Shown here: positions 2,289 to 46,308 of the stretch, piece after piece
Layout: every line of letters starts with the position of its first letter
Numbering within the stretch: the stretch's first letter is position 1
Assembly (NCBI GenBank): GCA_011391215.1
Contig: JAABQX010000011.1
Location: 1 to 46,948 of the forward strand
DNA length: 46,948 bases
Origin: Rhodocyclaceae bacterium
Lineage (GTDB): Bacteria > Pseudomonadota > Gammaproteobacteria > Burkholderiales > Rhodocyclaceae
Direction of reading: 5' to 3'
Translations under genes and position numbers: made by a program
Notes under the pieces: model-generated
What the model saw: only the letters and a program-made list of their open reading frames with translations
Database searches by the model: none
Told to the model about the DNA's origin: nothing

Positions 2289-3097
2289 TGGACTGCGTCA
2301 CGGAAAAGTCGGCGCTGACAACACGGAGCCAGACTCCGCTGGCTGGGCGGCATATCGTCGTGACGCGGCCGGCAGGCCAGGCAACCCATCTGGCCGAAGC
2401 GCTGGTCGAACTCGGCGCACATCCCGTACTGTTCCCCGTGCTGGCTATCGCGGATGTGACGGATACGGCGCCCTTGCTGGATGTGGCGATCCGTCTCGAG
2501 CAATACGACTGGGCGGTGTTCGTCAGCCCAAACGCCGTCGATAAGGCGCTCGCAGTGGTTCTGGAATACCGGCAATGGCCGGCGAGTGTGCGCGTGGCAA
2601 CCGTCGGTCACAGCAGTGAAGAGGCCTTGGCGCGTCACGGCATCCGCAACGTGGTGGCGCCGCAAGAGCGTTTCGACTCCGAGGCGCTCATGGAACTGCC
2701 CCCGCTCCAGGAGATGGCCGGCAAGCGCGTCATCATCTTTCGCGGCGACGGTGGCCGAGATTTGTTCGGTGACACCATGAAAGCGCGCGGTGCGCAAGTC
2801 GATTATGTCACCTGCTATCTGCGCAGCAAGCCCGCGCTCGATCCGGCGCCGCTGCTCAAGCTGTGGGGCGACGGCCGGCTGGACGCGCTGACCATCACCA
2901 GCAGCGAAGGCCTGCGCAATCTCTATGAGATGGTCGGCAAGCTCGGCCAGAGTTGGCTGAAAAAGACGCCGACCTTCGTGCCCCATGCGCGGATTGCCCA
3001 GCAGGCGCGCGCACTGGGGCTCACTCAGGTTATCCTGACGGGACCGGCAGATGCCGGATTGCTTGCCGGATTGATCGAACACCTTTCATCGCCATGA
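2288..3097 (+). CDS. hemD: uroporphyrinogen-III synthase
   Basis: HemD cyclises hydroxymethylbilane with D-ring inversion to uroporphyrinogen III. I take ATG 2288, which overlaps the hemC stop, rather than the TTG used by the track; this gives 269 aa, normal for the family. The start of the fold is visible in LAGRHIVVTRPAGQA, later FVSPNAVDKAL, TVGHSSEEAL and FVPHARIAQQA. HemD proteins diverge strongly, so recognition rests on these motifs plus the position between hemC and hemX. The N-terminal tail, residues 6-13 (EKSALTTR), is encoded by the most degenerate copy of the dispersed 23-bp motif. The 3' end overlaps hemX by 4 bp (ATGA). Confidence 0.95.
   Translation: MDCVTEKSALTTRSQTPLAGRHIVVTRPAGQATHLAEALVELGAHPVLFPVLAIADVTDTAPLLDVAIRLEQYDWAVFVSPNAVDKALAVVLEYRQWPASVRVATVGHSSEEALARHGIRNVVAPQERFDSEALMELPPLQEMAGKRVIIFRGDGGRDLFGDTMKARGAQVDYVTCYLRSKPALDPAPLLKLWGDGRLDALTITSSEGLRNLYEMVGKLGQSWLKKTPTFVPHARIAQQARALGLTQVILTGPADAGLLAGLIEHLSSP
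2305..2327 (+). repeat. dispersed 23-bp motif, degenerate copy in hemD
   Basis: It matches the consensus at 18 of 23 positions. The first 13 bases are perfect, the second half is degraded, and the final CGG is kept. It is read in the KSALAGR frame as KSALTTR in the N-terminal tail of HemD. Confidence 0.6.
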
Positions 3098-4267: not shown

Positions 4268-5491
4268 ATGCGCTCCCTCTTCTGGTTGCTGACCCTGAGC
4301 GCACTGGCGATCGGCGTTGCCTTGCTTGGTCACCTGTCTGACGGTTATGTGCTGTGGGTGTTGCCGCCCTGGCGCATCGAGCTGTCGTTCAACCTGTTTG
4401 TGCTGTTGCAGTTTGTTGTGCTTGCGGTGGTTTATCTTTTATTGCGTGCGATTGCCATCACCATGAACATGCCGCGCATCGTCGGCGAGTTTCGCTCCCG
4501 GCGCGCCCGCCAGCGCGATGAGCGCACGGTGGCCGAAGCGCTGCGTCAGTTCTGGGAAGGTCGTTACGGTCATGCCATCAAGAGTGCGGAAAAAGTCGGC
4601 GCCGGCGGGACGGCAGCTCCGGCTGGACCCGCCGTACAACTGGCAGCACTCGTCGGCTTCAAGGCTGCACATGCACTGCATGATGAGGCGCGCATCGCCG
4701 AGTGGCGCGCGCGTGCAGCAGCCGATGATGGCGCTTGGCATACGGCCCGCTTGATGGCCGAGGCCGGTTTGGCACTCGATGCGCGTGACTTTGCGGCAGC
4801 CAAAGCTGCGCTAGATCAACTCGGCGCCAAAGAGCGCCGCCAGATTTCTGCCCAGCGCATGTTCCTGCGTCTGGCCCAGGGGCAATCCGATTGGGCGGAG
4901 ATGTTGCGGATCGCCCGTTCGCTGGAAAAGCACCGCGCCCTGACGGCCGAGCAGGCTTTGCCCTTGCGCCTGCGCGCGCAGCGCGGCATGCTCGACGGGC
5001 TACAGGACGACCCTGTGCAACTCATGCGCTATTGGCGGGATATGCTGTCTGCCGAACGCCTCGATTTGCAACTCGCCCAGCGCGTCACGCGTGCATTGAC
5101 GATGGCTGGCGCCTGTGCAGAGAGCGGGCAACTTATCGAGGATTATCTCGATGCACGTTGGGAATCCGTGCTGCTGGAAGACTACGCGCGTTGCGTGAGC
5201 GCCGACGTTCTCGGGCACATCGCCCATTGCGAGAAGTGGCTGCATGCGCACCCGAACGATGCCGAGTTGCTGCTGGCGCTGGGCCGACTGTGCGCCCGCC
5301 AGCAACTCTGGGGTAAGGCACAAAGCTATCTGGAAGCCTCGCTGGCGGTGGATCCGTTATGTGATGTGCATGTTGAGCTGGCCCGTCTGTTTGACCATCT
5401 CGAGCGTCCCGATGATGCCAATCGGCACTATCGGGCGGCCGCAGGCTGCTTCGATCAAACCCAGTCGCGCGGCGGCAGGAAGTCCGTGTAG
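4268..5491 (+). CDS. hemY: HemY, inner-membrane TPR protein of the hem operon
   Basis: The protein is 407 aa starting [20 protein letters not shown], 7 bp after hemX. Two N-terminal transmembrane helices (about 4-22 and 38-60) precede a long helical region with TPR-like repeats; one near the C-terminus reads [20 protein letters not shown]. Proteobacterial HemY of this type is not the protoporphyrinogen oxidase of Bacillus; its biochemical role is unsettled, though it always travels with hemC, hemD and hemX. Residues 109-116 (KVGAGGTA) are encoded by a 22/23 copy of the dispersed motif, in a low-complexity loop between helices. The 3' end overlaps the convergent hemF by 37 bp. Confidence 0.93.
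4592..4614 (+). repeat. dispersed 23-bp motif in hemY
   Basis: It has 22 of 23 consensus bases (T to C at position 12). It is read as KVGAGGTA in the sense direction of hemY. Confidence 0.92.
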
Positions 5492-9437: not shown

Positions 9438-10447
9438 GCAGCATCCATGTAGGAAAGCGGGTCGTTGGCCGACGGGTGGCTGTCGGGGCCAAGAAAGAAT
9501 TCATCGGTAGCGGCGAGTTGCGCCGCCACATTTTCCAGTTGATTCATCGCGTGGCGGAAACGCGCCGCGCCGACGATACCTTTGGTGTACCAGGAGATGT
9601 GCTTGCGCGCGATTCTTACGCCGGTATCCTCGCCGTAAAAAGCGTAGAGGTCGGCGAGGTGTTCGCGCAGGATGGCGTGGATCTCGGCAAAAGTCGGCAC
9701 TGGCAGGACGGCGCCCGTCCTGAGGTAATGCTCGATCTCGCGGAACAGCCAGGGGCGACCCTGCGCAGCGCGGCCGATCATCACGCCATCGGCCTGCGTG
9801 TAATCGAGCACCTCTTTGGCTTTCTGTGGCGTGGCGATGTCGCCGTTGGCGATGACCGGAATACTCACCCGCGATTTCACGAGTGCGATGGTGTCGTATT
9901 CGGCATTGCCTGTGTACTGGTCAGCGCGCGTGCGGCCGTGGATGGCGATAGCGCGAATGCCGCATTCCTGGGCGATATGGGCGATCGTCGGGGCGTTCTT
10001 GTTGGCGTGATTCCAGCCAGTACGAAACTTCAGCGTGACCGGCGTTTCAGGTACGGTGCTCACCACGGCTTCAAGAATCTTTGCCACCAGCGCTTCGTCC
10101 TGCATCAGCGCCGAGCCGGCCATGACGTTGCACACCTTTTTTGCCGGGCAGCCCATGTTGACATCGACGATTTGCGCGCCACGGTCTACGTTGTAGCGCG
10201 CCGCTTGCGCCAGCAGGCCGGGATCAGCCCCGGCGATCTGGACAACGATCGGATCAACTTCGCCCGTGTGGTCGGCACGGCGGCGTGTCTTGGCACTGCC
10301 GTAGAGTAGCGAGTTGGAGGTGACCATCTCTGATACCGCCAGCCCCGCGCCGAGTTTCTTGCACAACTGGCGGAATGGCCGGTCCGTCACCCCGGCCATG
10401 GGCGCGACGAACAGGTTATTGCGCAGCGTGAAGCCGAGGTAGTCCAT
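9434..10447 (-). CDS. dusB: tRNA-dihydrouridine synthase B
   Basis: DusB is an FMN enzyme that reduces uridine to dihydrouridine in tRNA. The protein is 337 aa with APMAGVTDRPFR near the N-terminus, the signature DVNMGCPAKKVCN with the catalytic cysteine, AIHGRTRADQYTG and VIANGDIATPQKA (FMN barrel). The pairing with fis identifies the B subfamily. Residues 246-253 (VLPVPTF) are encoded antisense by a copy of the dispersed 23-bp motif, near the junction of barrel and C-terminal helical domain. A 73-bp gap without an obvious hairpin separates it from the ubiH-like gene. Confidence 0.97.
   Translation of the reverse strand: MDYLGFTLRNNLFVAPMAGVTDRPFRQLCKKLGAGLAVSEMVTSNSLLYGSAKTRRRADHTGEVDPIVVQIAGADPGLLAQAARYNVDRGAQIVDVNMGCPAKKVCNVMAGSALMQDEALVAKILEAVVSTVPETPVTLKFRTGWNHANKNAPTIAHIAQECGIRAIAIHGRTRADQYTGNAEYDTIALVKSRVSIPVIANGDIATPQKAKEVLDYTQADGVMIGRAAQGRPWLFREIEHYLRTGAVLPVPTFAEIHAILREHLADLYAFYGEDTGVRIARKHISWYTKGIVGAARFRHAMNQLENVAAQLAATDEFFLGPDSHPSANDPLSYMDAA
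9690..9712 (+). repeat. dispersed 23-bp motif in dusB (antisense to gene)
   Basis: It has 21 of 23 consensus bases (A at positions 10 and 16). On the dusB strand it reads AVLPVPTF, the APTF-type frame. Confidence 0.9.
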
Positions 10448-12934: not shown

Positions 12935-13612
12935 CTAGCACGCCATGCGCAACTCGGCATCGAGAGCGGCGAGTCGCTCCGGCGTGCCGACATCGACCCA
13001 GCGGCCGAGATGATGCTCGCCACTGATGCGTCCAGCGTCGATAGTTTCGTGGAGCAGGGGGGCGAGTTTTGCGGGTTGGCCGCGCACGATGCCGGCGAAA
13101 AGTTCCGTACGGTAGATGCCGATGCCGCTGAATGTCAATCGTGCCGTCCCGCCAACGCCGACTTTTTGCTGGGTTAACGTAAAGTCGCCTGCCGGATGTT
13201 GTGGGGGGTTGTCGACAAGTACCAGATGGGCCAGCATTTCCGGGGCAAGCGCACCATTTGCACGGCCGACATCCCAGTCGCAGAAGATGTCGCCATTGAC
13301 TACAAGAAACGGCGTGTCGCCGAGTAGATGCAGGGCGTTGGCAATGCCGCCGGCAGTTTCAAGTGCGCCGACCGGTTCGGCCGAATAATGAATGCGCACC
13401 CCCCAGGCATCGCCAGCCCCGAGCAAGGCTTCGATCTCATCGCCGAGATGCGCATGGTTGATGACGATATCTCGAAAGCCGGCACGCGCCAGGCGTTCGA
13501 GATGCCAGACAATCAGCGGCTTGCCGGCAACCGGAAGAAGTGGCTTGGGTGTGTGGTCGGTCAGCGGGCGCATGCGCTCACCACGGCCGGCCGCGAGAAT
13601 CATGGCTTTCAA
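12935..13612 (-). CDS. murU: N-acetylmuramate-1-phosphate uridylyltransferase
   Basis: The protein is 225 aa from a TTG start ([19 protein letters not shown]) that overlaps the amgK stop; ATG 13603 is an alternative three codons later. The nucleotidyltransferase signature [31 protein letters not shown] and [10 protein letters not shown] place it in the sugar-1-phosphate NTP-transferase family. Coupling to amgK and proximity to lptD match the Pseudomonas putida locus, where AmgK and MurU turn recycled MurNAc into UDP-MurNAc and bypass the fosfomycin-sensitive step. Function is assigned by that synteny. Residues 150-157 (KVGVGGTA) come from a dispersed-motif copy just before the conserved LTFSGIG. 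Confidence 0.9.
13143..13165 (-). repeat. dispersed 23-bp motif in murU
   Basis: It has 22 of 23 consensus bases on the minus strand (T at position 11). It is read in the sense direction as KVGVGGTA. Confidence 0.92.
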
Positions 13613-18670: not shown

Positions 18671-19610
18671 CCCCCCGGTCATTGCCGTTACTTCCGGCGA
18701 GCCGGCAGGTGTCGGCCCGGACATTTGTCTCGCTCTGGCCGCTGGTAATTTTCCCGCACGTATTGTCGTTCTCGGTGACCGCGATCTGCTCGCCGAGCGT
18801 GCGCACCTGCTTAAACACGGTAGCACGAAGCTCGAGATACGCCATATTCCATTGCGAAAGTCGGCGCTGGCGGGACGGCTCGATGTGGCCAACGCACGCT
18901 ATGTTCTCGACCTGCTAGATGCTGCTCTGGCAGGCTGCCAATCGGGTGAGTTTGCTGCCATGGTCACCGCCCCCGTCCATAAGGGCATCATCAATGATGC
19001 CGGCATTCCCTTCACCGGCCATACCGAATACCTTGCCGAGAAGACCGGCACACCGCGCGTCGTGATGATGCTTGCAGGAGCGGGGTTGCGTGTCGCGCTG
19101 GCGACCACGCATCTGCCATTGAAGGATGTGGCGGCCGCCATTACCGCCTCCGAACTTGAAACGACCATCAGGATCCTGCATGCCGACTTGCGCGGCAAAT
19201 TCGGTTTCGACCATCCGCGTATCCTGGTTGCCGGACTCAATCCCCATGCGGGTGAGGGCGGCCACATGGGACGCGAGGAGATCGAGGTGATTACGCCGGT
19301 ACTGGAGAAATTGCGCGCGGAGGGCTTGAACCTGATCGGCCCGCTACCGGCTGACACGCTGTTCACAAAAAATGTGCTGGCCGGTTCGCACGCCCAGCTG
19401 GCGATGTATCACGATCAAGGCCTGGCGGTGCTCAAATACGCCGCCTTCGATGAGGGTATCAACGTCACGCTTGGCCTGCCGATCATCCGCACCTCTGTCG
19501 ATCATGGCACCGCGCTCGATCTCGCAGGTAGCGGGAAAGCTTCGCCGACGAGTTTATTCGCCGCTGTCGAAGCGGCTATCGATATGGTGCAGCGTCGCAC
19601 CGCAGTATGA
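18642..19610 (+). CDS. pdxA: 4-hydroxythreonine-4-phosphate dehydrogenase
   Basis: PdxA oxidises 4-phosphohydroxy-threonine in the pyridoxal-5-phosphate pathway. I place the start at ATG 18642 (MSNTGLKNADPPVIAVTSGE), 322 aa, inside the end of surA; TTG 18657 is possible. Metal and substrate motifs are TSGEPAGVGPDI, GHTEYLAEKTG, LNPHAGEGGHMGREE and AMYHDQGL. Residues 72-79 (KSALAGR) are encoded by an exact copy of the dispersed motif, just before the usual GRLDPAN-like segment and without apparent length change. The stop overlaps the rsmA start (ATGA). Confidence 0.96.
   Translation: MSNTGLKNADPPVIAVTSGEPAGVGPDICLALAAGNFPARIVVLGDRDLLAERAHLLKHGSTKLEIRHIPLRKSALAGRLDVANARYVLDLLDAALAGCQSGEFAAMVTAPVHKGIINDAGIPFTGHTEYLAEKTGTPRVVMMLAGAGLRVALATTHLPLKDVAAAITASELETTIRILHADLRGKFGFDHPRILVAGLNPHAGEGGHMGREEIEVITPVLEKLRAEGLNLIGPLPADTLFTKNVLAGSHAQLAMYHDQGLAVLKYAAFDEGINVTLGLPIIRTSVDHGTALDLAGSGKASPTSLFAAVEAAIDMVQRRTAV
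18857..18879 (+). repeat. dispersed 23-bp motif in pdxA (exact consensus)
   Basis: It has 23 of 23 bases. It is read in the sense direction as KSALAGR. Confidence 0.95.
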
Positions 19611-20413
19611 GCCAGCAATTGCAAGGCCATACCGCACGCAAGCGCTTCGGCCAGAACTTCCTGGTTTCCCCTGGTGTCATCCACAAGATCATCGATGCCG
19701 TCGCACCGCTTGCGGGCGATACCGTGGTCGAAATCGGACCTGGTTTGGGGGCGCTCACCGGACCTTTCCTTGAACGCATCGACCATCTGCACGTCGTCGA
19801 GATAGATCGCGATCTGATTGCCCGTCTGCGCCAGCAGTTTCCGCCGGAGCGCCTGACCATTCATGCCGGCGATGCGCTCGCGTTCGACTTTGGTGCATTG
19901 AAAGAAGCGGGGCCACTCAAGATCGTCGGCAATCTCCCCTACAACATTTCCAGCCCCATGCTCTTCCATCTGGCCAAGTATGCAAATCAGGTCAGCGAAA
20001 TGCACTTCATGCTGCAGAAGGAAGTGGTTGATCGCATGGTCGCCGCACCCGGTTCGGGAGACTTTGGCCGGCTGTCGGTGATGCTGCAATACTGTTATTT
20101 CATGGAGCGATTGTTTATCGTGCCGCCGGGGTCGTTCAATCCGGCACCAAAGGTTGATTCTGCCGTGGTGCGCATGATCCCCCGCAAAGTCGGCGCTGGC
20201 GAGACGGCGCTTGATGAGGAACTTTTTGCGCGATTGGTGATGGCCGCCTTTTCCCAGCGCCGCAAGATGCTGCGCAATACGCTCAAGGACTTCGGTGGGG
20301 AGGCGCTGCTCGAAGCTCAGGGCATCGCGCCGACGGCGCGTGCAGAAACGCTTGCGGTGAGCGATTACGTTAATCTGGCCAACGTTCTGGCCGGACGGGC
20401 GGACAAAAAATAG
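19607..20413 (+). CDS. rsmA: 16S rRNA adenine(1518/1519) dimethyltransferase (KsgA)
   Basis: RsmA dimethylates two adjacent adenines in helix 45 of 16S rRNA during late 30S assembly. The protein is 268 aa. Motifs: RKRFGQNFLV, VVEIGPGLGALT (SAM binding), NLPYNISSPMLFHL (catalytic NLPY) and FSQRRKMLRNTL. Residues 194-201 (KVGAGETA) come from a dispersed-motif copy in the variable loop between RMIP and the C-terminal helical domain. The last codons are AAA AAA TAG, and this A-run also serves as the U-tract of the terminator of the convergent ftsZ transcript. Confidence 0.98.
   Translation: MSQQLQGHTARKRFGQNFLVSPGVIHKIIDAVAPLAGDTVVEIGPGLGALTGPFLERIDHLHVVEIDRDLIARLRQQFPPERLTIHAGDALAFDFGALKEAGPLKIVGNLPYNISSPMLFHLAKYANQVSEMHFMLQKEVVDRMVAAPGSGDFGRLSVMLQYCYFMERLFIVPPGSFNPAPKVDSAVVRMIPRKVGAGETALDEELFARLVMAAFSQRRKMLRNTLKDFGGEALLEAQGIAPTARAETLAVSDYVNLANVLAGRADKK
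20186..20208 (+). repeat. dispersed 23-bp motif in rsmA
   Basis: It has 22 of 23 consensus bases (A at position 17). It is read in the sense direction as KVGAGETA. Confidence 0.93.
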
Positions 20414-25564: not shown

Positions 25565-26976
25565 CAGGCCGCCACCAACTTGCCGGGTACGAGTTTGGCT
25601 GCCACTGCGCCGATCGAACCGGCGCCGAGGGTAATCACGATATCCCCATCACGCGCGGCATCCAGAATGGCCTGCGGCATGGTGGCAATCTCTTCGACGA
25701 AAACCGGTTCCAGCTTGCCGGTAACGCGCAGGGCGCGGGCCAGGGCGCGACCATCAGCGGCGACAATTGGCGGTTCGCCGGCAGCGTAAACTTCGGCCAA
25801 CAGCACGGCATCCGCCGCCGACAGAACCTTGACGAAATCCTCGAAGCAGTCACGCGTACGCGTGTAGCGATGCGGCTGAAAAGCCAGCACGATGCGCCGG
25901 CCGGGAAAGGCGCCACGCGCGGCAGCCAGCGTGGCAGCCATTTCGGTCGGATGATGGCCGTAGTCGTCGATCAGGGTGAAGGTGCCACCGGTCGACGCAG
26001 GGATTTCGCCAAAACGCTGGAAGCGCCGGCCAACGCCGTTGAACTCGGCCAAGGCTTTCTGGATCGCCGTTTCGCCAGCGCCGACTTCTGTGGCGACGGC
26101 AATCGCCGCCAGCGCGTTTCTGACGTTGTGCTCGCCCGGCAGATTGAGCGTGACCGGGAAACGCGATACCGAACCGTTGGTGCGTACGCAGTCGAAATGC
26201 ATGGCGCCGCTGCCGTCAGTGCTGGCGCGTACGTTTTCGGCGCGGATATTGACGCCGGGGGTAAAGCCGTAGGTCACGACTTGCTTCGCTATTGCCGGCA
26301 GGATTTCGCGTACATGCGGGTCGTCACCGCACATCACCGCAACACCATAGAACGGCAGGCGATGCACGAAATCGACGAAGGCCTGCTTGAGCTTGCCGAA
26401 GTCCTGGCCGTAGGTGTCCATGTGGTCCTGGTCGATATTCGTGACGACCGAAATCACCGGTGAAAGGAACAGGAAGGACGCATCGGATTCATCGGCTTCG
26501 GCGACCAGATAGTCGCCCTGCCCAAGGCGCGCATTGGCGCCCGCCGAATTCAGCCGGCCACCGATGACGAAGGTCGGGTCAAGGCCGGCCTCGGCGAGGC
26601 AACTCGCCACCAGGCTGGTCGTCGTTGTCTTGCCGTGGGTGCCGGCGATGGCGATGCCCTGCTTGAGGCGCATCAGTTCGGCAAGCATCTGGGCGCGCGG
26701 CACGATGGGGACATGGCGTGCGCGTGCCGCGACAACCTCCGGGTTGTCCTCTTTCACAGCGGTGGATACCACCACGGCATCGGCACCCAGCACATTTTCT
26801 GCTGTGTGACCGATGGTGACGCGCACGCCTTTTTCGGTCAGGCGGTGCGTGGTAGCCGATGCGGCGAGGTCTGAACCGCTGACCTCGAAACCCTGGTTGG
26901 CCAGTACCTCGGCAATGCCGCTCATGCCCGCACCGCCGACACCGACGAAGTGGATGCGCTTTACTTTATGTTTCAT
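25564..26976 (-). CDS. murC: UDP-N-acetylmuramate-L-alanine ligase
   Basis: MurC adds L-alanine to UDP-MurNAc, the first Mur ligase step. The protein is 470 aa. The N-terminal Rossmann domain has [18 protein letters not shown], the ATPase centre [16 protein letters not shown] and [15 protein letters not shown]-like metal/substrate residues, and the C-terminal domain [16 protein letters not shown] and [11 protein letters not shown]. Residues 297-304 (EVGAGETA) are from a dispersed-motif copy in the loop before the GVGRRFQR motif. It overlaps murG by 4 bp. Confidence 0.98.
26066..26088 (-). repeat. dispersed 23-bp motif in murC
   Basis: It has 20 of 23 consensus bases on the minus strand (G at position 1, A at positions 17 and 18). 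It is read in the sense direction as EVGAGETA. Confidence 0.85.
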
Positions 26977-28070
26977 TTGAAAGTATCCCAGCAGATTTTT
27001 GCAACGGATTCCGTTGCCTCAGGCATTGCCAAAGCGCGTGCCCTTTCGGCCATTTCCAGCAGCTGCGAACGCGTCAGATTGCGCAGCAAGGACAGTCGTT
27101 CCGGCGTGAGTTCCGACTGCGACAGCAGCATGGCTGCCCCGGCTTGCGAGAGGAAGCGCGCGTTGGCGGTCTGGTGGTCATCGACGGCGTGCGGAAACGG
27201 CACGAGGATGCTGGCTACGCCGGCAGCGGCGAGCTCGGAGATGGTCAATGCGCCGGCGCGGCAGATCACCAGGTCGGCCCAGCCATACGCGCCCGCCATG
27301 TCTTCGATGAAGGTCACTGTATGCGCATCTACCCCGGCAGCGGCATAGGCAGTGCGCAATGCTTCAAGATGTTTTTCGCCTGACTGATGCACGACCTCGG
27401 GGCGCTCGGCCTCGGGCAGTAGAGCCAGCGCCGCCGGCACGGTTTCGTTGAGCACCTGTGCGCCCAGGCTGCCGCCGATGACTAGCAGGTGCAATTTTCC
27501 GGAACGCCCGGCAAAACGTAAAGTCGGCGCCGGCAGGACGGCGATGTCGTGCCGCACCGGGTTGCCGATCCACTGGCCTTTTTTCAAGACGTCGGGAAAG
27601 CCGGTCAGGACGCGATCCGCCACGCCGGCCAGCACTTTGTTCGTCAATCCGGCGATGGAATTCTGTTCATGCACGACCAGCGGAATGCCCCGCAGTGCCG
27701 CCATCATGCCGCCCGGAAAACTGATGAAGCCGCCCATGCCAAGCACGACATCCGGGCGGATGCGGGAAAAGTGCGCCCAGGCCTGGCTGAAGCCGCGCAG
27801 CAGATTCCAGGGCAGCAAGAGTTTGCGCAACAGGCCCTTGCCGCGCAGAGCAGCGAAACGTACCCAGGCCATCTCGTAACCATGCTCAGGTACGCGCCGC
27901 GCCTCCATGCCATCCGGATTGCCCATCCAGAAGATTTTCCAGCCATGGCGCTGCAGTTCGTCGGCTACCGCCAGCCCGGGCATGATGTGGCCGCCGGTGC
28001 CGCCCGCCATGATGACGATCGTCTTGGTCAGGGCGGCGTATTCGGTCGGCTTGATGGTCGCCATGTTCAT
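26973..28070 (-). CDS. murG: undecaprenyl-PP-MurNAc-pentapeptide N-acetylglucosaminyltransferase
   Basis: MurG adds GlcNAc to lipid I to make lipid II on the cytoplasmic face of the membrane. The protein is 365 aa with an N-terminal tail before the usual [20 protein letters not shown] (glycine-rich loop 1). Further motifs are [31 protein letters not shown] and [11 protein letters not shown]. Residues 177-184 (VLPAPTL) are encoded antisense by a dispersed-motif copy, following IGNPVRHDI at the usual inter-domain position. It overlaps ftsW and murC by 4 bp each. Confidence 0.98.
27520..27542 (+). repeat. dispersed 23-bp motif in murG (antisense to gene)
   Basis: It has 21 of 23 consensus bases (C at position 12, A at position 16). 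On the gene strand it reads AVLPAPTL. Confidence 0.9.
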
Positions 28071-29248: not shown

Positions 29249-30627
29249 GCGGCAGCGCCCTGTGCCAGTGAGCGTACCGCCGCCTTGAAGACGTCGGCGC
29301 GATGTTCGTAATTGCGGAACATGTCGAAACTGGCGCAGGCCGGCGACAGCAATACGGCATCGCCCGCCTGCGCACGTAGGGCGGCGGCCTGCACGGCCTC
29401 TGCCAGGCTGGCGGCATTCAGGATCGGCACACCGCAACCGTCGAGCGCATCACGAATTTTCGGCCCATCGCGGCCGATCAACACCACGCCGCGTGCATGG
29501 TGGGTCACGGCCGCCTTGAGCGGCGAGAAGTCCTGTCCCTTGCCGTCACCACCGAGGATGATGACCGACGGGCAACCCAGCCCTGCGAGCGCCGCCACGG
29601 TGGCGCCGACATTGGTGCCCTTCGAATCGTCGTAATACGTGACGCCGGCAATCTCGGCGACCTTCTCGACACGGTGCGGCAGGCCCCGAAAGGTGCGTAG
29701 CGCCGGCAGCAGTTTCACGACATCGATATCGATCGCGGCGCACAGTGCCAAGGCGGCCAGCGCGTTGGCGGCGTTGTGTAAGCCTGCCAGCGGCAGTTCG
29801 CTGATCGGCAACAGGAAGCGGCTGCCCTGCACCAGCCAGGGTTCTCCACGGTTTTCGCGCACCCCGAAATCCGTTTCGACAGTCGGTGCATCGAGCCCGA
29901 AGGTGATCAACTGGCGACCGGGAATGGCCATGTGCTTGACGCGTGCATCCTGGCGGTTCAACACCTGCACGCCATCACCCTTGAAAATGCGCGCCTTGGC
30001 GCTGGCGTAATCATTGAGGTCTATATAGCGATCGAGGTGGTCGTCGGAAATGTTCAGGACGGTTGCTGCTGCGGCGTTCAATGTCTCCAGCGTTTCCAGC
30101 TGGAAGCTCGATAGTTCCAGCACCCAGGCTTGCGGCAAGGCGCCAGCGTCCTGAAAATCCATCAGCGCGGTCAGCGCGGCCGGCGAGATATTGCCGGCAA
30201 CGCCAGCCGTACGGCCGCTCGCAGCAATCAAATGCCCCGTGAGCGCTGTCGTTGTCGTCTTGCCGTTGGTGCCGGTGATCGCCAGCACCGGCACATGCTG
30301 CTCCAGCGTGCGCAAACCCCAGGCGAACAGTTCGATCTCGCCGATCACCGGAAGGCTTTGCGCACGGGCGTGGATGACGATCATCAGTCCGGCGGACAGG
30401 CCGGGTGAGAGCACGAGCAGGTCGATACCTTCCAATAGCGTCTTGTCAAACTCGCCTGAGCAAAAGTCGGCGCCAGCGAGACGGCTATTGAGGTCATTTA
30501 GGTAGGGCGGTGATGTCCGCGTATCCGCGACGCGCACCCGCGCACCCTGCCGGTCGCACCAGCACGCGCAGGCCAGACCGGATTCGCCGAGGCCGAGGAT
30601 GAGGACGTGTTTGCCGCGTAAGTTCAT
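29245..30627 (-). CDS. murD: UDP-N-acetylmuramoyl-L-alanine-D-glutamate ligase
   Basis: MurD adds D-glutamate to UDP-MurNAc-L-Ala. The true start is [19 protein letters not shown] (ATG 30627), 460 aa; the track ORF reads further into mraY out of frame. Motifs are [28 protein letters not shown] (P-loop), [29 protein letters not shown] and [13 protein letters not shown]. Residues 48-55 (SRLAGADF) are encoded antisense by a dispersed-motif copy where related MurDs have PGVEF-like residues before SGPFD. Its ATG overlaps the mraY stop by one base. Confidence 0.98.
30463..30485 (+). repeat. dispersed 23-bp motif in murD (antisense to gene)
   Basis: It has 20 of 23 consensus bases (C12, A13, A17). 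On the gene strand it reads RLAGADF, the ASADF-type frame. Confidence 0.85.
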
Positions 30628-31796: not shown

Positions 31797-33168
31797 GGGA
31801 GCTCTCCACGATCGCTGCGACGATGCGTTCCATGCGCATGAAGCGCGATCCTTTCACCAGCACGGTGGTGTCCTTGTCCATGAGGGGTTGCAGTGCGGCG
31901 AGCAGCGTTTCGACAGCGGTGAAATGCTGTCCGCCGCCGGCGAAATTATGTACGGCGGCGACGCTCTTTTCACCCAGCGCCAACAACTGGTCAATGCCCT
32001 GGCTCTTGGCATAGCCGCCGATCTCGTCGTGCAGTTGCCCCGCCGTCTCGCCGACCTCGCCCATGTCGCCCATAACAAGGATGCGCCGGCCGGGCAGAGT
32101 CGCCAGCACGTCGATGGCGGCGCGCATCGAATCCGGATTGGCGTTGTAGCTGTCATCGATCACGGTGGCGCCCTGCCAGCCGGGTTTGTGCTGCAGTCGG
32201 CCATGCACGCCGACATAACCGGACAGGCCGCGTACCACGGCGGCCAGCGGTACGCCGGCCGCGAGGCAGGCCGCCGCCGCTGCCAGCGCATTGCGTGCGT
32301 TGTGCGCGCCCGGTACCGGAAGATGGAGCGTCGCCTTGCCTTGTGGCGTGTCGAGAGAAAGTTCGCCACCAATCCCTTCAGGGTGCCATTGCCCGCACAC
32401 TTCCGCCTCCGGCGTAAATCCGAAACGCAGCATCTGCCGGCCGGCATTCTGTTCCTGCCACAGTGGCGCATGTGGGTCATCGGCATTGATCACGGCGACG
32501 CCAGTGCTATCCAACCCGGCGAAGATTTCGCCCTTGGCCCGGGCGACATCCGCTACCGTGCCCAGGCCGGCAAGATGTGCGCGCTGGGCATTGTTGACGA
32601 GTGCCACGGTGGGTCGGGCGATCTGTGTCAGGTAGGCAATCTCACCCGGATGATTCATGCCCATCTCGATCGCGGCGGCATGATGATCGCTGCGCAATTT
32701 CAGCAGGGTGAGCGGCAGGCCGATGTCGTTGTTGAAGTTGCCGTCCGTGGCCAGCACACGGTGCTGGCCGAAATCTGCGCGCAGGATGGACGCGCACATT
32801 TCCTTTACCGTTGTCTTGCCGTTACTGCCGGTGATGCCGATCAAGGGCAAGTGAAAGCGTGCGCGCCAACTCGTCGCAAGTTGTCCCAGCGCCAGGCGCG
32901 TATCGGCGACCGCCACCAGCGGCAGGTTGAGGTTGGCGAGGTTGGCAGGATTACCTGCGACCCAGTCGGACATGACTAATGCGCCGGACGCTCCTTGCGC
33001 CAGGGCGTCGCGAACATGGTCATGGCCGTCGAAACGCTCCCCCTGCAGCGCGACAAAGAGCATGCCCGGCATCACGGCGCGCGAGTCGGTGCCGACACTG
33101 GTGAAATCGCTATTGCGGCCATGGTGGTGGCCACCGAGAATGCGCGCGGTTTCTGCCAGATTCAACAT
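31786..33168 (-). CDS. murF: UDP-MurNAc-tripeptide-D-alanyl-D-alanine ligase
   Basis: MurF adds D-Ala-D-Ala to complete the UDP-MurNAc-pentapeptide. The real start is ATG 33168 ([13 protein letters not shown]), 460 aa; the track extends it through the murE tail in another frame. The N-terminal UDP-binding domain is intact ([20 protein letters not shown]). The P-loop is [14 protein letters not shown], and the C-terminal domain has [18 protein letters not shown] and [12 protein letters not shown]. It overlaps murE by 7 bp and mraY by 11 bp. Confidence 0.98.
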
Positions 33169-34385
33169 GATGGCCGCCCATCCGTTGGCGGCATTTGCGG
33201 CTCGACGGCGTGCCGTCCCGCCAGCGCCGACTTTGCCGTGTCGAAATCGGAAAATGGCAGGCGCACGCCGGCGATTTCCTGATAGGGCTCGTGTCCCTTG
33301 CCGGCGAGCAGGATCACGTCGCGGGCGTCGGCTTGCATGATCGTTTGCGCGATGGCCTGTGCACGATTCGCTTCGATGATCGGTGTTTGCTGCATGCCGC
33401 TGCGGATGGCGGCGATGATCGTCAGGGGATCTTCGCTGCGTGGATTGTCGCTGGTGATCACGGTCAGATCGGCGCGCTGCTCGGCGATGGCACCCATCAG
33501 CGGACGCTTGCCGGTATCGCGGTCGCCGCCGCAACCGAATACGCACAGCAGCTTGCCGCTGCGCGCCGTGGCGGTTTCGCGCAGGGTCGTCAGCACTTTT
33601 TCCAGCGCATCGGGCGTATGGGCATAGTCGACCACCACCAGCGGGGCCGCCATACCGCCCAGGGTTTGCATACGACCCGCCGGCGGCATGATGTCCTGCA
33701 GTGCGCCGGCGATGTCGGCCGGCGTTTCGCCAGCAGCGATCAGCGCTCCGATGACGGCGAGCAGATTGGCGGCATTGAAGCGGCCGATTACCGGCGCCGT
33801 GAAGTGCGCCCCGGCGACATCGAAAGCAATGCCGGCGCCGCTCTGGGTCAGGTTTTCCGCGCGCAATACGTTATCCGCACCCTGCGCGTTGGCCAGCGTG
33901 TAGCCGATGGTGCGCACGCGTCCCGCGAGTTGCGCGGCGAGCTCGCTACCGAAGGGGTCATCGAGGTTGATGACCGCGGCACGCAGCCCGGGCATCTCGA
34001 ACAGTTGGCGTTTCATGGCGGCGTACTCGGCCATGTCGCCGTGATAATCGAGGTGATCGCGCGTGAAATTCGTGAACACCGCCACGTCGAAAACGATGCC
34101 GGCCACTCTTTTCTGGTGGAGGCCGATCGACGAGACTTCCATTGCGCAGACCTGCGCACCTTGCTGGACGAACTCAGGGAGCAATTGCTGCAACACGGCG
34201 GCGCCGGGCGTGGTGTTCGGGCCCGGCACCAGTGCCTCGGGAAAACCGTTGCCCAGCGTGCCGACCAGCGCACACTTGCGCCCTAGCCGCGTCAAGGCGT
34301 GCGCAAGCCATTGGGTCACTGAGGTCTTGCCGTTGGTGCCGGTGACGCCGATCATGAAGAGGGGGAAGCGTTCTGTTACGCTCAC
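33162..34385 (-). CDS. murE: UDP-MurNAc-dipeptide-2,6-diaminopimelate ligase lacking the N-terminal domain
   Basis: The central and C-terminal Mur-ligase domains are clear: GVTGTNGKTSVTQWL (P-loop), MEVSSIGLHQKRV, TNFTRDHLDYHGDM, VVDYAHTPDALEKVL and SDNPRSEDP, the last typical of meso-DAP-adding MurE. The product is only 407 aa, against about 490-510 for the family. It begins MSVTERFPLFMIGVTGTNG, so the roughly 100-residue N-terminal domain that holds the UDP part of the substrate is absent. The GTG start overlaps the ftsI stop (ATGTGA) and has AGGAGG four bases upstream, leaving no room for the missing domain. Residues 384-391 (KSALAGR) come from an exact dispersed-motif copy near the C-terminus. 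Confidence 0.95.
   Translation of the reverse strand: MSVTERFPLFMIGVTGTNGKTSVTQWLAHALTRLGRKCALVGTLGNGFPEALVPGPNTTPGAAVLQQLLPEFVQQGAQVCAMEVSSIGLHQKRVAGIVFDVAVFTNFTRDHLDYHGDMAEYAAMKRQLFEMPGLRAAVINLDDPFGSELAAQLAGRVRTIGYTLANAQGADNVLRAENLTQSGAGIAFDVAGAHFTAPVIGRFNAANLLAVIGALIAAGETPADIAGALQDIMPPAGRMQTLGGMAAPLVVVDYAHTPDALEKVLTTLRETATARSGKLLCVFGCGGDRDTGKRPLMGAIAEQRADLTVITSDNPRSEDPLTIIAAIRSGMQQTPIIEANRAQAIAQTIMQADARDVILLAGKGHEPYQEIAGVRLPFSDFDTAKSALAGRHAVEPQMPPTDGRPSC
33212..33234 (-). repeat. dispersed 23-bp motif in murE (exact consensus)
   Basis: It has 23 of 23 bases on the minus strand. It is read in the sense direction as KSALAGR in the MurE C-terminal tail. Confidence 0.95.
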
Positions 34386-36385: not shown

Positions 36386-37324
36386 TCACAGAACTTTTTC
36401 CGCCACGCGCATCACCGCGCTGCGCGCACGCGGGTTGGCGGCAGTTTCGGCAGCACTCGCCCGGACCGCTTTGCCGACGAGACGCAAAGTCGGCGCCGGC
36501 AGGTCGGCGGCACGTACCGGCACGCCCTTCGGCGGCTGCGGCGGGCTGGCCGCGTCACGCAGAAAGCGTTTGACAATGCGATCTTCAAGCGAATGAAAGC
36601 TGATCACGGCAAGGCGGCCTCCCGGCTGCAGGCGACGCAGCGCCTGCGGCAGGGTTAGCGACAGCTCCTCAAGCTCCCGATTGACGTGAATCCGTAGAGC
36701 CTGGAAGGTGCGCGTCGCCGGGTGCTGCCCTGGCTCGCGCGTGCGGACGACCGCCGCCACGAGCGCGGCAAGCTGTCCTGTGGATGAAATACGCTGCCCG
36801 CTCCGAGCAGCAACAAGCGCCTTTGCAAGCGCATGAGCAAACCGTTCTTCGCCATACTCACGAATTACCCCCTCTATTTGACGTTGTTCCGCGCTCGCCA
36901 GAAAGTCCGCTGCGGTCTCCCCCTGTGTCGTATCCATGCGCATGTCCAGCGGCGCATCGAAACGAAAACTCATTCCCCGTGACGGGTCGTCCAGTTGCGG
37001 CGACGACACGCCCACGTCCAGCAAAATTCCATCCACTTGAGTGACGCCCTGCGCTGTCAGCACTTCGTCCAGCCGGCTGAAGGCGGCATGAATCAGCGTT
37101 AAACGCGGATCTTTGATCGATGCCCCCGCAGCGATGGCTGCCGGGTCGCGATCCAGCGCAATCAGGCGACCGGCCGAGCCGAGCTGACCGAGAATCGCCC
37201 GGCTGTGTCCGCCGCGCCCGAAGGTGGCGTCGACATAGAGACCGTCCGGCTTGATTGCCAGTGCTGCCACGGCCTCCATCAGCAGCACCGGCAGATGGGC
37301 TGCCGGAGATAACGGGTTGCTCAT
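36386..37324 (-). CDS. rsmH: 16S rRNA (cytosine-1402-N4)-methyltransferase
   Basis: RsmH (MraW) methylates C1402 in the ribosomal P-site; RsmI, also in this window, adds the 2'-O-methyl group to the same base. The protein is 312 aa with [14 protein letters not shown] (SAM site), [35 protein letters not shown] and [14 protein letters not shown]. Residues 273-280 (DLPAPTL) are encoded antisense by a dispersed-motif copy, in register with the usual DLPPPALK-like stretch. It lies 6 bp after mraZ. Confidence 0.98.
36486..36508 (+). repeat. dispersed 23-bp motif in rsmH (antisense to gene)
   Basis: It has 20 of 23 consensus bases (C12, A16, T19). On the gene strand it reads ADLPAPTL. Confidence 0.87.
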
Positions 37325-38026: not shown

Positions 38027-38405
38027 GGTGGAAGTCCGCCGATAAGCCGGGTTCTGTCGTGGGCAGCCATTCCTCTGGGACTGACGTTACCGCCAGCCTC
38101 TAGCAGCCTACCCGGGAGCGACGCGAGCCACGCCATTACTCCCCTATTTGGCCTTGCCCCGGATGAGGTTTGCCGTGCCGTCCGTGTTACCACGTCCGCG
38201 GTGAGCTCTTACCTCGCCATTTCACCCTTACCGGTTCTTGCGAACTTAGGCGGTATCTTTCTGTTGCACTGTCTGTCGCCTTGGGTCGATCGACCTGAGT
38301 CTTGCGACTTGCTGCGCCCGGCCGTTAGCCGGCATCCTGCTCTATGGGGCCCGGACTTTCCTCCAGACGATGTTTTGTCCAGCGGCTGCCTGGCGAACTT
38401 CCACT
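38027..38405 (-). ncRNA. rnpB: RNase P RNA (bacterial type A)
   Basis: The minus strand carries the conserved elements in order. They are GAGGAAAGTCCGGGC near the 5' end, ACAGTGCAACAGAAAG, GGTAAGGGTGAAA, GGTAAGAGCTCACCGC, GGCAAGGCCAAATAGGGG, GGGTAGGCTGCT and ACGACAGAACCCGGCTTAT near the 3' end. The two ends pair as P1 (GTGGAAGTTCGCC with GGCGGACTTCCAC), which sets the limits at about 379 nt. This ribozyme trims tRNA 5' leaders with RnpA. Track ORFs in this interval are artefacts. Confidence 0.98.
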
Positions 38406-39921: not shown

Positions 39922-40767
39922 TTAACCGCCCTTGATTTCGAGCGCCCGCCGGTAAAGATCGTTCTTCGCCACGCCGGTGATCTCGCTCCCTAGCTTGGCG
40001 GCCTGCTTGACCGGCAATTCGGCGAGCAACACGCGCAGCACGCGCTCGGCCTCGGCATCCAGGCCTTCGCGAGGGGGCGGCGCGGAAACCAGCAGCACGA
40101 ATTCGCCCCGGCGGTGGTTTTTGTCGGCCGCCAGCCAGGCCGGTGCGTCGGGCAGCGGCAGGCGCACGATTTCCTCGAACAGCTTGGTCAACTCGCGAGC
40201 GATGACGATTTCGCGTTGTGCTTCGAGCAGATTGGCGAGGTCGGCGATGGTTTCCTCGATGCGGTGTGGCGCCTCGTAGAACACCAGCGTTGCGGCAACG
40301 GGTTTCAGTGCTTCGATCGCCGTCCTGCGAGCGCCGACTTTTGCCGGCAGAAAGCCGACGAAATGGAAAGCCGGATCATCGAGTCCGGCGGCCGAAAGCG
40401 CGGCAATCGCAGCGTTGGGGCCGGGCAGGGGGGCGACCTTGAAACCCGCAGCGCGCACTGCAGCCACGGCGCGTGCGCCCGGGTCGGAAATGCCCGGCGT
40501 ACCCGCATCCGAGATCATCGCCACGCGTTTGCCTTCGGTCAGTAGTGTGACCAATTTCTCCGCCGCTGCCTGCTCGTTGTGCTCATGCACGGCCAGCAAC
40601 TGGGCGCGAATGTCGTAGTGGTCGAGTAACCGTCGCGCATGGCGCGTGTCCTCGCAGGCGATCACCTCTGCCGTGCGTAGCACCTCGAGCGCACGCAAAG
40701 TAATGTCGCCGAGGTTGCCGATCGGGGTAGCGACGATGAATAATGCCGGTTTTCTGGAATCGCTCAT
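39922..40767 (-). CDS. rsmI: 16S rRNA (cytidine-1402-2'-O)-methyltransferase
   Basis: RsmI methylates the 2'-OH of C1402, the partner modification to RsmH. The true start is [20 protein letters not shown] (ATG 40767), 281 aa. Motifs are [47 protein letters not shown] and VGFLPAK. Residues 143-150 (KVGARRTA) are encoded by a dispersed-motif copy directly after FLPA, exactly where E. coli has KSKGRRDA, so the protein is not lengthened. Its ATG shares the tetramer CATG with the divergent yraN ATG. Confidence 0.98.
40319..40341 (-). repeat. dispersed 23-bp motif in rsmI
   Basis: It has 21 of 23 consensus bases on the minus strand (C at position 13, A at position 16). It is read in the sense direction as KVGARRTA. 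Confidence 0.9.
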
Positions 40768-41149
40768 GGCCGCAATTATCACCCACCAAGTCCCCACCAC
40801 CACCAAGCAAATCGGCGATGCCGGCGAAGCGGTCGCCGCAGACTATCTCGTTGCCCAGGGACTGCGGGTGCTGGCACGCAATTTCCGCGTCAAGGGTGGC
40901 GAAATCGATCTGGTCTGCCGCGACGGGGCGACCACGGTATTCGTCGAAGTGCGCCGTCGCGCCAGCGCCGACTTTGGCGGGGCTGGCGCGAGCATTAACG
41001 CCCGCAAGCAACAGCGCCTGATCCTCGCCGCCAGACACTGGCTGGCGCGGCATGGGGAGTGCGCCTGTCGCTTCGATTGCGTACTGATCGACGGGACAAA
41101 TAAGGGCGACAAACTGGAATGGCTGCGCGATGCGTTTTCTGCTGATTAG
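40766..41149 (+). CDS. yraN: YraN family (UPF0102) nuclease-like protein
   Basis: The protein is 127 aa from ATG 40766, overlapping the divergent rsmI start by 2 bp. The family has a restriction-endonuclease-like fold: GDAGEAVAADYLVAQGLRVL, then GEIDLVCRDG and VFVEVRRR give the Glu, Asp and ExK-like acidic centre, though the terminal Lys is replaced by Arg. Its cellular role is not established. Residues 63-70 (RRASADF) are encoded antisense by a dispersed-motif copy, lying exactly where E. coli YraN has YRRSALYGG. Confidence 0.95.
   Translation: MAAIITHQVPTTTKQIGDAGEAVAADYLVAQGLRVLARNFRVKGGEIDLVCRDGATTVFVEVRRRASADFGGAGASINARKQQRLILAARHWLARHGECACRFDCVLIDGTNKGDKLEWLRDAFSAD
40953..40975 (-). 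repeat. dispersed 23-bp motif in yraN (antisense to gene)
   Basis: It has 22 of 23 consensus bases on the minus strand (C at position 17). On the gene strand it reads RRASADF. Confidence 0.92.
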
Positions 41150-43279: not shown

Positions 43280-44606
43280 TCTTCCGCTCGATGGCCTGGC
43301 GCACCAGCACGATATGGCTGCGCAGGGTGTACACCATGTCGGCAAACGTCACGGGCATCGGCAGGCGGTTCACGTCGTGTTCGATGGCATCCAGGCGCTT
43401 CAGCCATTCCTCGCGCGTCTGTTGCGTCGGGTCGGCATCGACTTCCGCCTCGATGAACTTGAGTTCGCCATAGCGCCGGTAGATGCGTGACTTGACGCGC
43501 CAGTCGTACATTCCCGGGGCGATCTTCAGCACGGGAATCAGCACGGCAATCAGCGGGATCAGCATCACCACCATGCGGTCGACGAGGGTCGCCGCCCAGA
43601 ACGGCAAGTAGCGCTGCAAGAAGGGCTTGCCCGACTTGTAATAGCGCTCGGCCTCTTTCGACAGGGGAAAGTCGGCGCTGGCAGCACGGGGGAATTCCCC
43701 CGGTTTTTGAAAAACGCCCGGCCCGCCATGCACTTCCGTCAGGGCCAGCATCAGCAGGTCGATGAGCGCCGGGTGGGTGTCCTCGCGCACCACCAGGCTC
43801 GCCGTGGCGGCCACCAGTTTGATGTCGCGTGGCGGCATGTCGGTGGCCAGGTCGATGGCGCCGCGCGGCAATACCAGGGCCGATAAATAAGGGAAGCGCC
43901 GCGTGTAGGCCTCGGCCTGCACCAGGCTCATCAATTTGAGTCCGGGAGTGTGCAGCAATGTCCACACTGTTGCCGATTGCGGCGGCCCGACGACGAAGGC
44001 CGCGTCGATGCGCTTTGCCGCAAAGGCCTTCGCCAGGCCGGTACCACCCTGCTCGAGCAGTTTGGTGTTGGCGGCCTCGATCTGGTTGGCTTGCAGTAAT
44101 TCCAGAGCGAGATGACGGGTTCCGCTACCCGTACCGCCGATGGCGATGCGCCGTCCCTTCAGTTCGCTGATCCGCGACAGGGGCTTTTCGTCAGCTTCGA
44201 GTTCGGTGCGGTAGAAAATCCACAGCGGTTCGTTGTACAGACCGCCCAGCGAGACCAGCGTATCGTCGTCCTGCACGCGTGCCGTGCCACCCTGGATGAA
44301 CGCGGCATCGACCGCATGCTCGGGATCGCGCAGCCGTTCCAGATTTTCTGTCGAACCCGCCGAGGCTTCTTCGGTTACCTGGATACCGTAGCGCGCCAGC
44401 ACATCCTTGTAGGCCGCGCCGAAGCGCTGGTAAGCCCCGCCTTCCCCTCCGGTAGCGATGATCAGGGTATCCGGCGGGGCCGGCCGGATATACCGCGAGG
44501 CCAGCCAGAAGCCCGCGAAGACCACGATCAGCAGCGGCAGGCCGACGATCAACAGGTCGCGCGGCGAATACTCTTTGAGGCGACGCGGGATGCGCGGCTT
44601 CTTCAT
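43266..44606 (-). CDS. membrane-anchored TAXI-family (TRAP-type) solute-binding protein
   Basis: The protein is 446 aa. An N-terminal transmembrane helix (about 18-40, [19 protein letters not shown]) anchors a periplasmic TAXI binding domain: [39 protein letters not shown] and [14 protein letters not shown] second hydrophobic segment (about 330-355, [16 protein letters not shown]) is followed by a cytoplasmic helical tail. Ordinary TAXI receptors are soluble and paired with a fused DctQM permease; none is present here. Residues 306-313 (AASADF) are encoded antisense by a dispersed-motif copy. It lies 6 bp after ssb. Confidence 0.9.
43668..43690 (+). repeat. dispersed 23-bp motif in the TAXI gene (antisense to gene)
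   Basis: It has 20 of 23 consensus bases (A16, C18, G23). On the gene strand it reads RAASADF. Confidence 0.86.
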
Positions 44607-45093: not shown

Positions 45094-46308
45094 TTAAGTT
45101 GCTGCCGTTGTTACCGTTGTCCGTGGCTGCGGCGGGTTCATGCGCAACGCCAATCCGAGCCAGATGATGCCGATCGCGGCGCCCACCACATGCACTGCTG
45201 ACGCGCCTTGATACTTCACCAGCCAGCCGCCCAGCACGCCGCCGAGAAACAGCCCGATCGATTGCGTCGTATTGTAAATGCCCAGCGCCGCGCCTTTCGA
45301 TGCCGGTGGCGCGATGCGCGAAATCAGCGAAGGCTGCAAGGCTTCGAGGATGTTGAAGGCGACGAAGAACAGCAGCAGCCAGAGACCCGTGCCCCACAAT
45401 CCGCCGCCAAATGCGGCTAAACCCGCCTGCACCAATACCAGCAGGGCCACCGCGCCGACATACACCGGCTTGACCTTGCCGCGTCGTTCGGCGGCGATGA
45501 TGGCCGGCACCATCACGGCGAACGACAGCAACACTGCCGGCAGATAGACCTTCCAGTGTTCGCCGCCTGGCAGGCCGCCGGCGACCAGCGCGGTCGGCAC
45601 CACTACCCAGAGCGCCGTTTGCATCAGGTGCAGCGCGAACACGCCGAAATTCAGCCGTGCCAGCTTGGCGTCGAGCAAAACGCTGGAAAAGGGTGCACGG
45701 GCCTGTGCGGTAAAAGTCGGCGCTGGCGGGACGGCGACAAATAGCAGAATAATGGCGCCGAGTGCCAGACAGCCAATCAATATGAACAAACCGGAGAGCC
45801 CGAGCGCTGCGGCCAGCGGCGGTGCGGCCACCAGCGACACCGCGAATACCAGGCCAATGGTGGCGCCAATCATCGCCATCACCTTGGTGCGATGTTGCTC
45901 GCGCGTGAGATCGGCTGCCAGCGCGGTGACCGCCGCCGAGATGGCGCCGGCCCCCTGCAAAATACGACCAAAAATCATGACGTGAATATCCGGTGCCGCC
46001 GCTGCAATGAAGCTGCCCGCAGCATAGATCAACAGGCCGGTGACGATCACCGGCTTGCGTCCCCAGCGATCGGACGCCAGACCGAAGGGGATTTGCAGGA
46101 AAGCCTGCGTCAGACCGTAAGCGCCGAGCGCCAGGCCGACCAGCATGATGTCATCGCCCCCCGGCAGGCGTCCAGCCAGCACCGTAAAAACAGGCAGCAC
46201 CAGAAACAGGCCGAGCATACGCAAGCCGAAGATGGCCGCCAGCACGCTGCCGGTGCGCCGTTCGGCAGGGGTCATGGCATCGACTACGGGAGAGAGCACG
46301 CTGGGCAT
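45094..46308 (-). CDS. MFS transporter, DHA1-like drug/metabolite efflux family
   Basis: The protein is 404 aa with about 12 transmembrane helices. Motif A of the major facilitator family is visible as [19 protein letters not shown] between helices 2 and 3. The substrate cannot be inferred. A later Met ([13 protein letters not shown]) is a possible start. Residues 192-199 (VPPAPTF) come from an exact dispersed-motif copy, in the central loop between the two six-helix halves. Its location between uvrA and ssb is common in proteobacteria. Confidence 0.94.
45713..45735 (+). repeat. dispersed 23-bp motif in the MFS gene (exact consensus, antisense to gene)
   Basis: It has 23 of 23 bases. On the gene strand it reads AVPPAPTF in the cytoplasmic loop between the transporter halves. 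Confidence 0.95.

Follow-up and report, generated by a model that had tools for sequence, protein, structure and literature searches.

To our knowledge, uptake sequences have been known from only two bacterial families, and the accumulation of one of them (i.e., the DUS) is explained by biased uptake combined with recombination. The DUS of the Neisseriaceae is read by the minor pilin ComP (PMC3630211, PMC3868556), and Frye et al. described eight DUS dialects in this family and five genomes without one (PMC3630211). The USS of the Pasteurellaceae (PMC1626085) has a candidate receptor, ComN/PpdA (PMC12616744), and only 65% of the USS copies of H. influenzae lie in ORFs, compared with 86% coding DNA (PMC2346458). 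Inverted pairs that form terminators are typical of Neisseria and the Pasteurellaceae (PMC1852404). With so few families, uptake sequences may be either rare accidents or something to which competence leads repeatedly.

The motif described here (cGCCGTCYYGCCAGCGCCGACTTTt), from a genome of the Rhodocyclaceae, bears on this choice and points, on sequence grounds, to a signal for self-recognition in DNA uptake that has not been reported before. Like the DUS of the Neisseriaceae, it occurs in hundreds or more of dispersed copies on both strands, in and between genes; it has lineage dialects with a constant core, is absent from part of its family, and is carried by betaproteobacterial hosts with ComEC. 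Unlike the DUS, it is 24 bases long (versus 10 to 12), has a density of about 240 copies per Mb (versus roughly 1,000 or more), forms no inverted-pair terminators, and has a different sequence. The DUS (GCCGTCTGAA) and the motif share only GCCGTC, probably by chance. A long extended consensus, an excess in noncoding DNA, and subclade dialects are shared with the USS of the Pasteurellaceae; however, the sequences are unrelated, the USS is gammaproteobacterial with a 9-base core, and terminator pairing, present in the USS, is nearly absent here. HIP1, Chi, KOPS, and REP are likewise highly overrepresented short genomic sequences. Of these, HIP1 is palindromic and has 8 bases, Chi and KOPS have the same length but are oriented with replication, and REP sequences are inserted and form hairpins; we know of none among them with a 24-base asymmetric consensus and dialects lying in register in proteins. 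The motif is longer and sparser than the known uptake sequences and is bipartite, its family is not known for such sequences, and we found no report of it. In open-access full text (a scope outside of which most subscription papers and all preprints fall), there was no match to the motif letters and no paper linking an uptake sequence with the Rhodocyclaceae.

The window (i.e., the whole stretch of 46,948 bases that was analyzed) contains 15 copies of the motif (up to three mismatches), while 0.01 are expected from dinucleotide shuffles. The two focal copies, the genes that hold them, the other 13 copies, and one structured RNA are as follows.

40319 to 40341, plus strand: focal motif copy in rsmI (gene on the minus strand), encoding KVGARRTA in antisense frame 0
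40953 to 40975, plus strand: focal motif copy in yraN (gene on the plus strand), encoding RRRASADF
39922 to 40806, minus strand: rsmI, 16S rRNA (cytidine(1402)-2'-O)-methyltransferase (TIGR00096, NF011570)
40646 to 41149, plus strand: ORF holding yraN (UPF0102 family; TIGR00252; family match from residue 52)
2305 to 2327, minus strand: motif copy near the HemD N-terminus, with three mismatches
4592 to 4614, minus strand: motif copy in hemY, KVGAGGTA
9690 to 9712, minus strand: motif copy in dusB, AVLPVPTF
13143 to 13165, plus strand: motif copy in murU, KVGVGGTA
18857 to 18879, minus strand: motif copy in pdxA, RKSALAGRL
20186 to 20208, minus strand: motif copy in rsmA/ksgA, KVGAGETA
26066 to 26088, plus strand: motif copy in murC, EVGAGETA
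27520 to 27542, minus strand: motif copy in murG, AVLPAPTL
30463 to 30485, minus strand: motif copy in murD, SRLAGADF
33212 to 33234, plus strand: motif copy in the murE C-terminal tail, KSALAGRR frame
36486 to 36508, minus strand: motif copy in rsmH, ADLPAPTL
43668 to 43690, minus strand: motif copy in the gene for a TAXI-type solute-binding protein, PRAASADF
45713 to 45735, minus strand: motif copy in an MFS transporter gene, AVPPAPTF
38027 to 38401, minus strand: full-length bacterial RNase P RNA class A (RF00010), between rsmH and pyrC

The RNase P RNA was the sole Rfam match in the window, with none at the motif; thus, no known RNA element accounts for the motif. A suspected frameshift in murE was dropped, as the end of MurE lies at 33162 and the ORF of MurF overlaps MurE in another frame.

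The assembly of the window (G000; G, g, and f numbers denote genomes, genera, and families, respectively) comprises 2.33 Mb, is 76% complete, and carries 558 motif copies (291 and 267 on the two strands), or one per approximately 4 kb; the reversed control pattern occurs once. Such extreme overrepresentation of one motif across a chromosome is characteristic of DUS and USS. The short core of 9 to 12 bases found in those systems has no counterpart here: about 24 positions are conserved, the arrangement is asymmetric and nonpalindromic, and no conservation was seen beyond 24 to 25 bases around the copies. The consensus holds about 38 bits of information, compared with the approximately 13 bits that are enough to mark 558 sites. 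Copies with 0, 1, 2, 3, 4, and 5 mismatches number 46, 48, 24, 5, 6, and 9, respectively, and the counts beyond five merge with the control (background). The spectrum is bimodal, i.e., the copies crowd near the perfect match.

An earlier note on this DNA had proposed that the motif replaces native codons in register and keeps protein lengths, and named consistent insertions of seven to eight residues in advance as the contrary result. Codon alignments around rsmI covered motif-bearing genomes of the genus and of two neighboring genera together with 22 motif-lacking genomes, and later approximately 70 genomes. The RsmI site consists of exactly eight residues in 38 of 38 motif-lacking genomes, and the YraN site has eight residues in 37 of 38, the remaining genome having 12 (i.e., longer, not shorter). 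For comparison, the length of ordinary eight-codon windows differs in 8% of the comparisons for RsmI and in 34% for YraN, the latter figure taking in poorly aligned gene ends. One typical change at the focal sites starts from FLPPKSAARR, and another runs from VEVRLRSRSDFGG to VEVRRRASADFGG. Of the three further proteins named by the note, MurD and PdxA, like MurC, MurG, and DusB, align to solved homologues with no gap at the motif, and RsmH is equal in length to its counterparts in 8 of 8 motif-lacking genomes. Equal lengths were also found for the TAXI-type protein (3/3), the MFS transporter (4/6), and the MurE C-terminus (7/7, via homologous copies in relatives), while KsgA is one residue longer and MurU two residues shorter at the motif than solved homologues. 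Overall, 11 of the 15 window copies involve no length change and two differ by one or two residues, HemY and the HemD N-terminus being left out. None of the 13 copies compared has an insertion of seven or eight residues at the motif. Thus, the contrary result named by the note did not appear.

At the DNA level, comparisons of close congeners gave 97 in which the copy is shared and 17 in which it is missing without a gap. In the few gapped cases, the extra DNA (7 to 34 bases) usually lies in the motif-lacking genome, and no congener alignment contains a net insertion of 21 to 24 bases in the motif-bearing genome. In three cases (L129:15887 versus L118; L126:2692 and L128:19061 versus L157), the congener counterpart is split by an in-frame extra 27 or 33 bases; such split counterparts reflect either an insertion into an existing copy or a deletion by which a copy became complete. 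An insertion origin was rejected for every copy that aligns cleanly, some copies of other genomes that lie close to gene ends being too poorly aligned to judge. Many near-identical dispersed copies, some of them in length-variable gene ends, might be expected if the copies were remnants of an in-frame miniature mobile element (like the Rickettsia palindromic elements [RPE] or REP), but we consider this exceedingly improbable: the added length and clean empty sites of such elements are missing, no clean comparison contains an insertion of 7 to 8 residues or 21 to 24 bases, nothing is conserved past 24 to 25 bases, and the same PyrC codons hold different dialects by lineage (see below).

The note had further suggested that the motif arises where the native sequence is already close and is then refined, and both parts agree with the data. 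The homologous sites of motif-lacking genomes differ from the motif by a mean of 11.6 (RsmI) and 11.2 (YraN) mismatches, compared with approximately 16 gene-wide, and rank at a median percentile of 4% and 2% within their genes. Being nearer to the motif than the rest of the gene, the sites were thus born where the sequence was already compatible. The gain usually altered amino acids as well (e.g., LRS to RRA in YraN), and therefore was not silent. Refinement is visible in the bimodal mismatch spectrum and in excess synonymous conservation: codon identity among congeners, counted where the amino acid is the same, is 0.84 (RsmI) and 0.90 (YraN) inside the motif, compared with 0.59 and 0.57 outside.

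In the complete genome G017, the motif shows no strand skew (p 0.27), and its sites are distributed uniformly along the chromosome (KS p 0.69) with Poisson-like spacing (CV 0.98). The strands are balanced in every genome counted, and this use of both strands with no replication polarity is shared with DUS and USS. Sites of the Chi or KOPS type are short and follow the direction of replication, an orientation not found here. A signal for recombination or self-recognition (i.e., Chi-like, or a self tag for a defense nuclease) that protects or repairs the cell's own DNA is distinctly unlikely on the evidence of this balance, of the random spacing, and of the excess information in the consensus, and no such system with a 24-base recognition site is known to us, although a very frequent, genome-wide, and lineage-specific motif that is rare in viral contigs (the exact motif occurs in 79 of 2.9 million) would suit it. 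In one viral contig (IMG/VR 3300009945_000063; L389), the exact motif occurs five times, with four of these copies at 316-base spacing.

The motif is four to five times denser between genes than within them. With genes called by a simple custom gene caller, 55 of 123 copies in a 437-kb sample of G000 are intergenic, compared with 14.6% noncoding DNA (p 1e-15), as are 26 of 81 copies in G017 (p 4e-5). Presence within genes by substitution, together with a noncoding excess, is again as in DUS and USS. The intergenic copies favor gaps between convergent genes, and only 4 of 52 lie in divergent, promoter-like gaps, which make up 20% of the gap DNA; this avoidance speaks against a role as promoter element. 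An inverted partner accompanies just 2 of the 75 intergenic copies, and a terminator function via inverted pairs was rejected; frequent pairs of this kind are common in DUS and USS but do not define them.

The motif is patchily distributed. In the genus of the window (g1), 17 of 18 congeners carry 199 to 709 copies (consensus, up to two mismatches), as does one member each of g2 and g9, and the remaining sampled family members carry zero to four copies of the g1 consensus at the same threshold. The lone g1 exception, G006, sits on a long branch and fell outside in the first tree, the trees being built on three proteins only. G032 has one copy though it is nested inside the motif-bearing clade, where its tree neighbors have hundreds, and this suggests a recent loss or a change of dialect. 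When the skeleton GCCGT-N12-GACTTT was counted in 151 Rhodocyclaceae genomes from 68 genera, strong enrichment was found in g1, g2, g9, g11, g47 (one of two genomes), g62, g69, g70, and g88, and moderate enrichment in g90; most other genera are at background, so that about 10 of the 68 genera sampled have the motif. An order-wide count placed nearly all of 50 other families at background. The clear exception outside the family is G246 (f38), with 18 skeleton copies that mix the g1 and g11 dialects, so that contamination or transfer is possible; G047 (f12) has six. The genomes cited are partly incomplete, and some of those with low copy numbers may be contaminated.

In PyrC of G028 (g11), another form of the motif (ACTGACTTT; L138:10522-10544) occupies the same codons as the g1 copies, and this observation led to a survey of dialects. 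De novo word counts revealed that some "negative" genomes carry another version of the motif; in G028, it is cGCCGT-(9)-ACTGACTTTT, with 20 copies in 139 kb. The dialects read ..CCAGCGCCGACTTT in g1, ..CAGCACCGACTTT in G026, GCCGCCCC..GAGTTT in G016, ..GGGACTGACTTT in g11, ..AGCGTCGACTTT in g69, and GCCGTRCCRCSACGGCTGACTTT in g90. They share the core GCCGT-N12-GACTTT and differ mainly in the middle, which is CCAGCGCC in g1 and in the few copies read of g47, g62, g70, and g88, CAGCACC in G026, AGCGTC in g69, GGGACT in g11, and ACGGCT in g90; G016 alters both ends (i.e., GCCGCC and GAGTTT). These lineage-specific dialects are congruent with the three-protein phylogeny, a further feature of DUS and USS.

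Orthologous sites follow the dialect of their genome. In G026, which has CACC in its dialect, the RsmI site reads GAGCACCGACTTT; in G016, it reads GCCGCCCTGCGAGCGCCGAGTTT, in agreement with the G016 dialect. One PyrC site passed from an ancestral-looking AALPAGMxFEPLMT to AAVPPGxTFxPLMT. Its DNA resembles GCSCTGCCGGCGGGCATG... in motif-lacking genomes and reads GCCGTCCCGCCAGGACCGACTTT in G003 and G017 (with a g1-like form also in G013), GCCGTGCCGCCAGGGCCGACTTT in G079 (g62), GCCGTGCCGCCGGGACTGACTTT in G028 and G114 of g11 (the g11 form also occurring in G161), and GGCGTGCCACGACGACTGACTTT in G189 (g90). Thus, four lineages hold their own motif forms at the same codons with no indel, i.e., a natural replicate experiment on the origin of sites. 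These forms are either independent gains or one old site retuned in each dialect, and both require evolution in place under a changing reader. That shared ancestry alone accounts for the sites, which would then be ancient, passed on vertically, and under no continuing drive, is very improbable: it would fit the RsmI site, which carries the motif in g1, g2, g9, g47, g62, g70, and g88 alike, but not the varying presence within a genus (the 17 ungapped absences), the restriction of the YraN copy to g1, the different dialects at the PyrC site, or the codon conservation above that of the flanks.

The motif might instead be the binding site of a chromosome-organizing or abundant cytoplasmic DNA-binding protein, under site-by-site selection and with a specificity that drifts between lineages. 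We regard this as unlikely. The in-place origin, the synonymous constraint, the dialects, and the intergenic enrichment fit it too; however, there is no macrodomain pattern and no polarity, the spacing is random, divergent promoter regions are avoided, and an asymmetric consensus of approximately 38 bits is far above the need of a marker selected site by site. The patchy occurrence among genera suggests, moreover, that the motif is dispensable.

The best explanation, and in our judgment a probable one, is that the motif represents, in a lineage of the Rhodocyclaceae, a signal similar to an uptake sequence. This reading is favored because dispersed, strand-neutral, and dialect-bearing copies that arise in place and are enriched where proteins do not constrain them are features of the DUS. 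Copies arise by point substitution at partly matching sites, on either strand and in whichever reading frame the protein tolerates, and are subsequently refined until the match is nearly perfect. We infer that the engine is natural transformation, in which the cell surface would carry a DNA receptor (probably a minor pilin of type IV) with a preference for motif-bearing fragments; recombination would then spread motif-improving alleles, and this uptake bias would amount to a molecular drive. The note had likewise pointed to biased recombination, and among the mechanisms considered it would fit the data best. When the specificity of the receptor changed in a lineage, the sites would follow, giving rise to the dialects.

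The receptor is the weak point of the uptake reading. ComEC (PF03772) is present in 39 of 40 genomes, G000 included, and does not discriminate motif-bearing genomes. Pilins of the ComP-like (PF16732) and GspH/FimT (PF12019) families occur in 36 of 40 genomes each, with or without the motif, and were rejected as markers. Neither family has a match in G086, which is motif-bearing and 98% complete, or in G000, whose assembly is 76% complete. A second, isolated GspH-type pilin, which we presume to resemble MshC, was also rejected as a marker, since it is a prepilin that occurs in motif-lacking genomes too. None of these pilins tells the motif-bearing genomes apart. The uptake reading is also opposed by the length of the motif (about twice that of DUS and USS), its sparser occurrence, and the near absence of inverted terminator pairs. 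Since a short core is missing, the candidate receptor pilins do not discriminate, and the motif is known from sequence data, we do not claim membership in DUS or USS. The chances seem to us evenly balanced that the Rhodocyclaceae are a third bacterial family with its own DNA uptake sequence system, with an uptake motif longer than any other known (24 bases, in the bipartite form GCCGT-N12-GACTTT), six or more dialects, orthologous sites rewritten in each dialect, and a receptor that is not a ComP/FimT orthologue. If independent of the known cases, a system whose dialects span many genera would allow the molecular-drive model to be tested by comparison and would offer a route to a new DNA receptor via gene content and covariation with the dialects. 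It would also imply frequent transformation in uncultured environmental bacteria that are mostly known from metagenomes.

A second overrepresented word was observed in a 400-kb sample of G017, where words of the TAACCCGTAA type, unrelated to the motif, occur in 13 copies.
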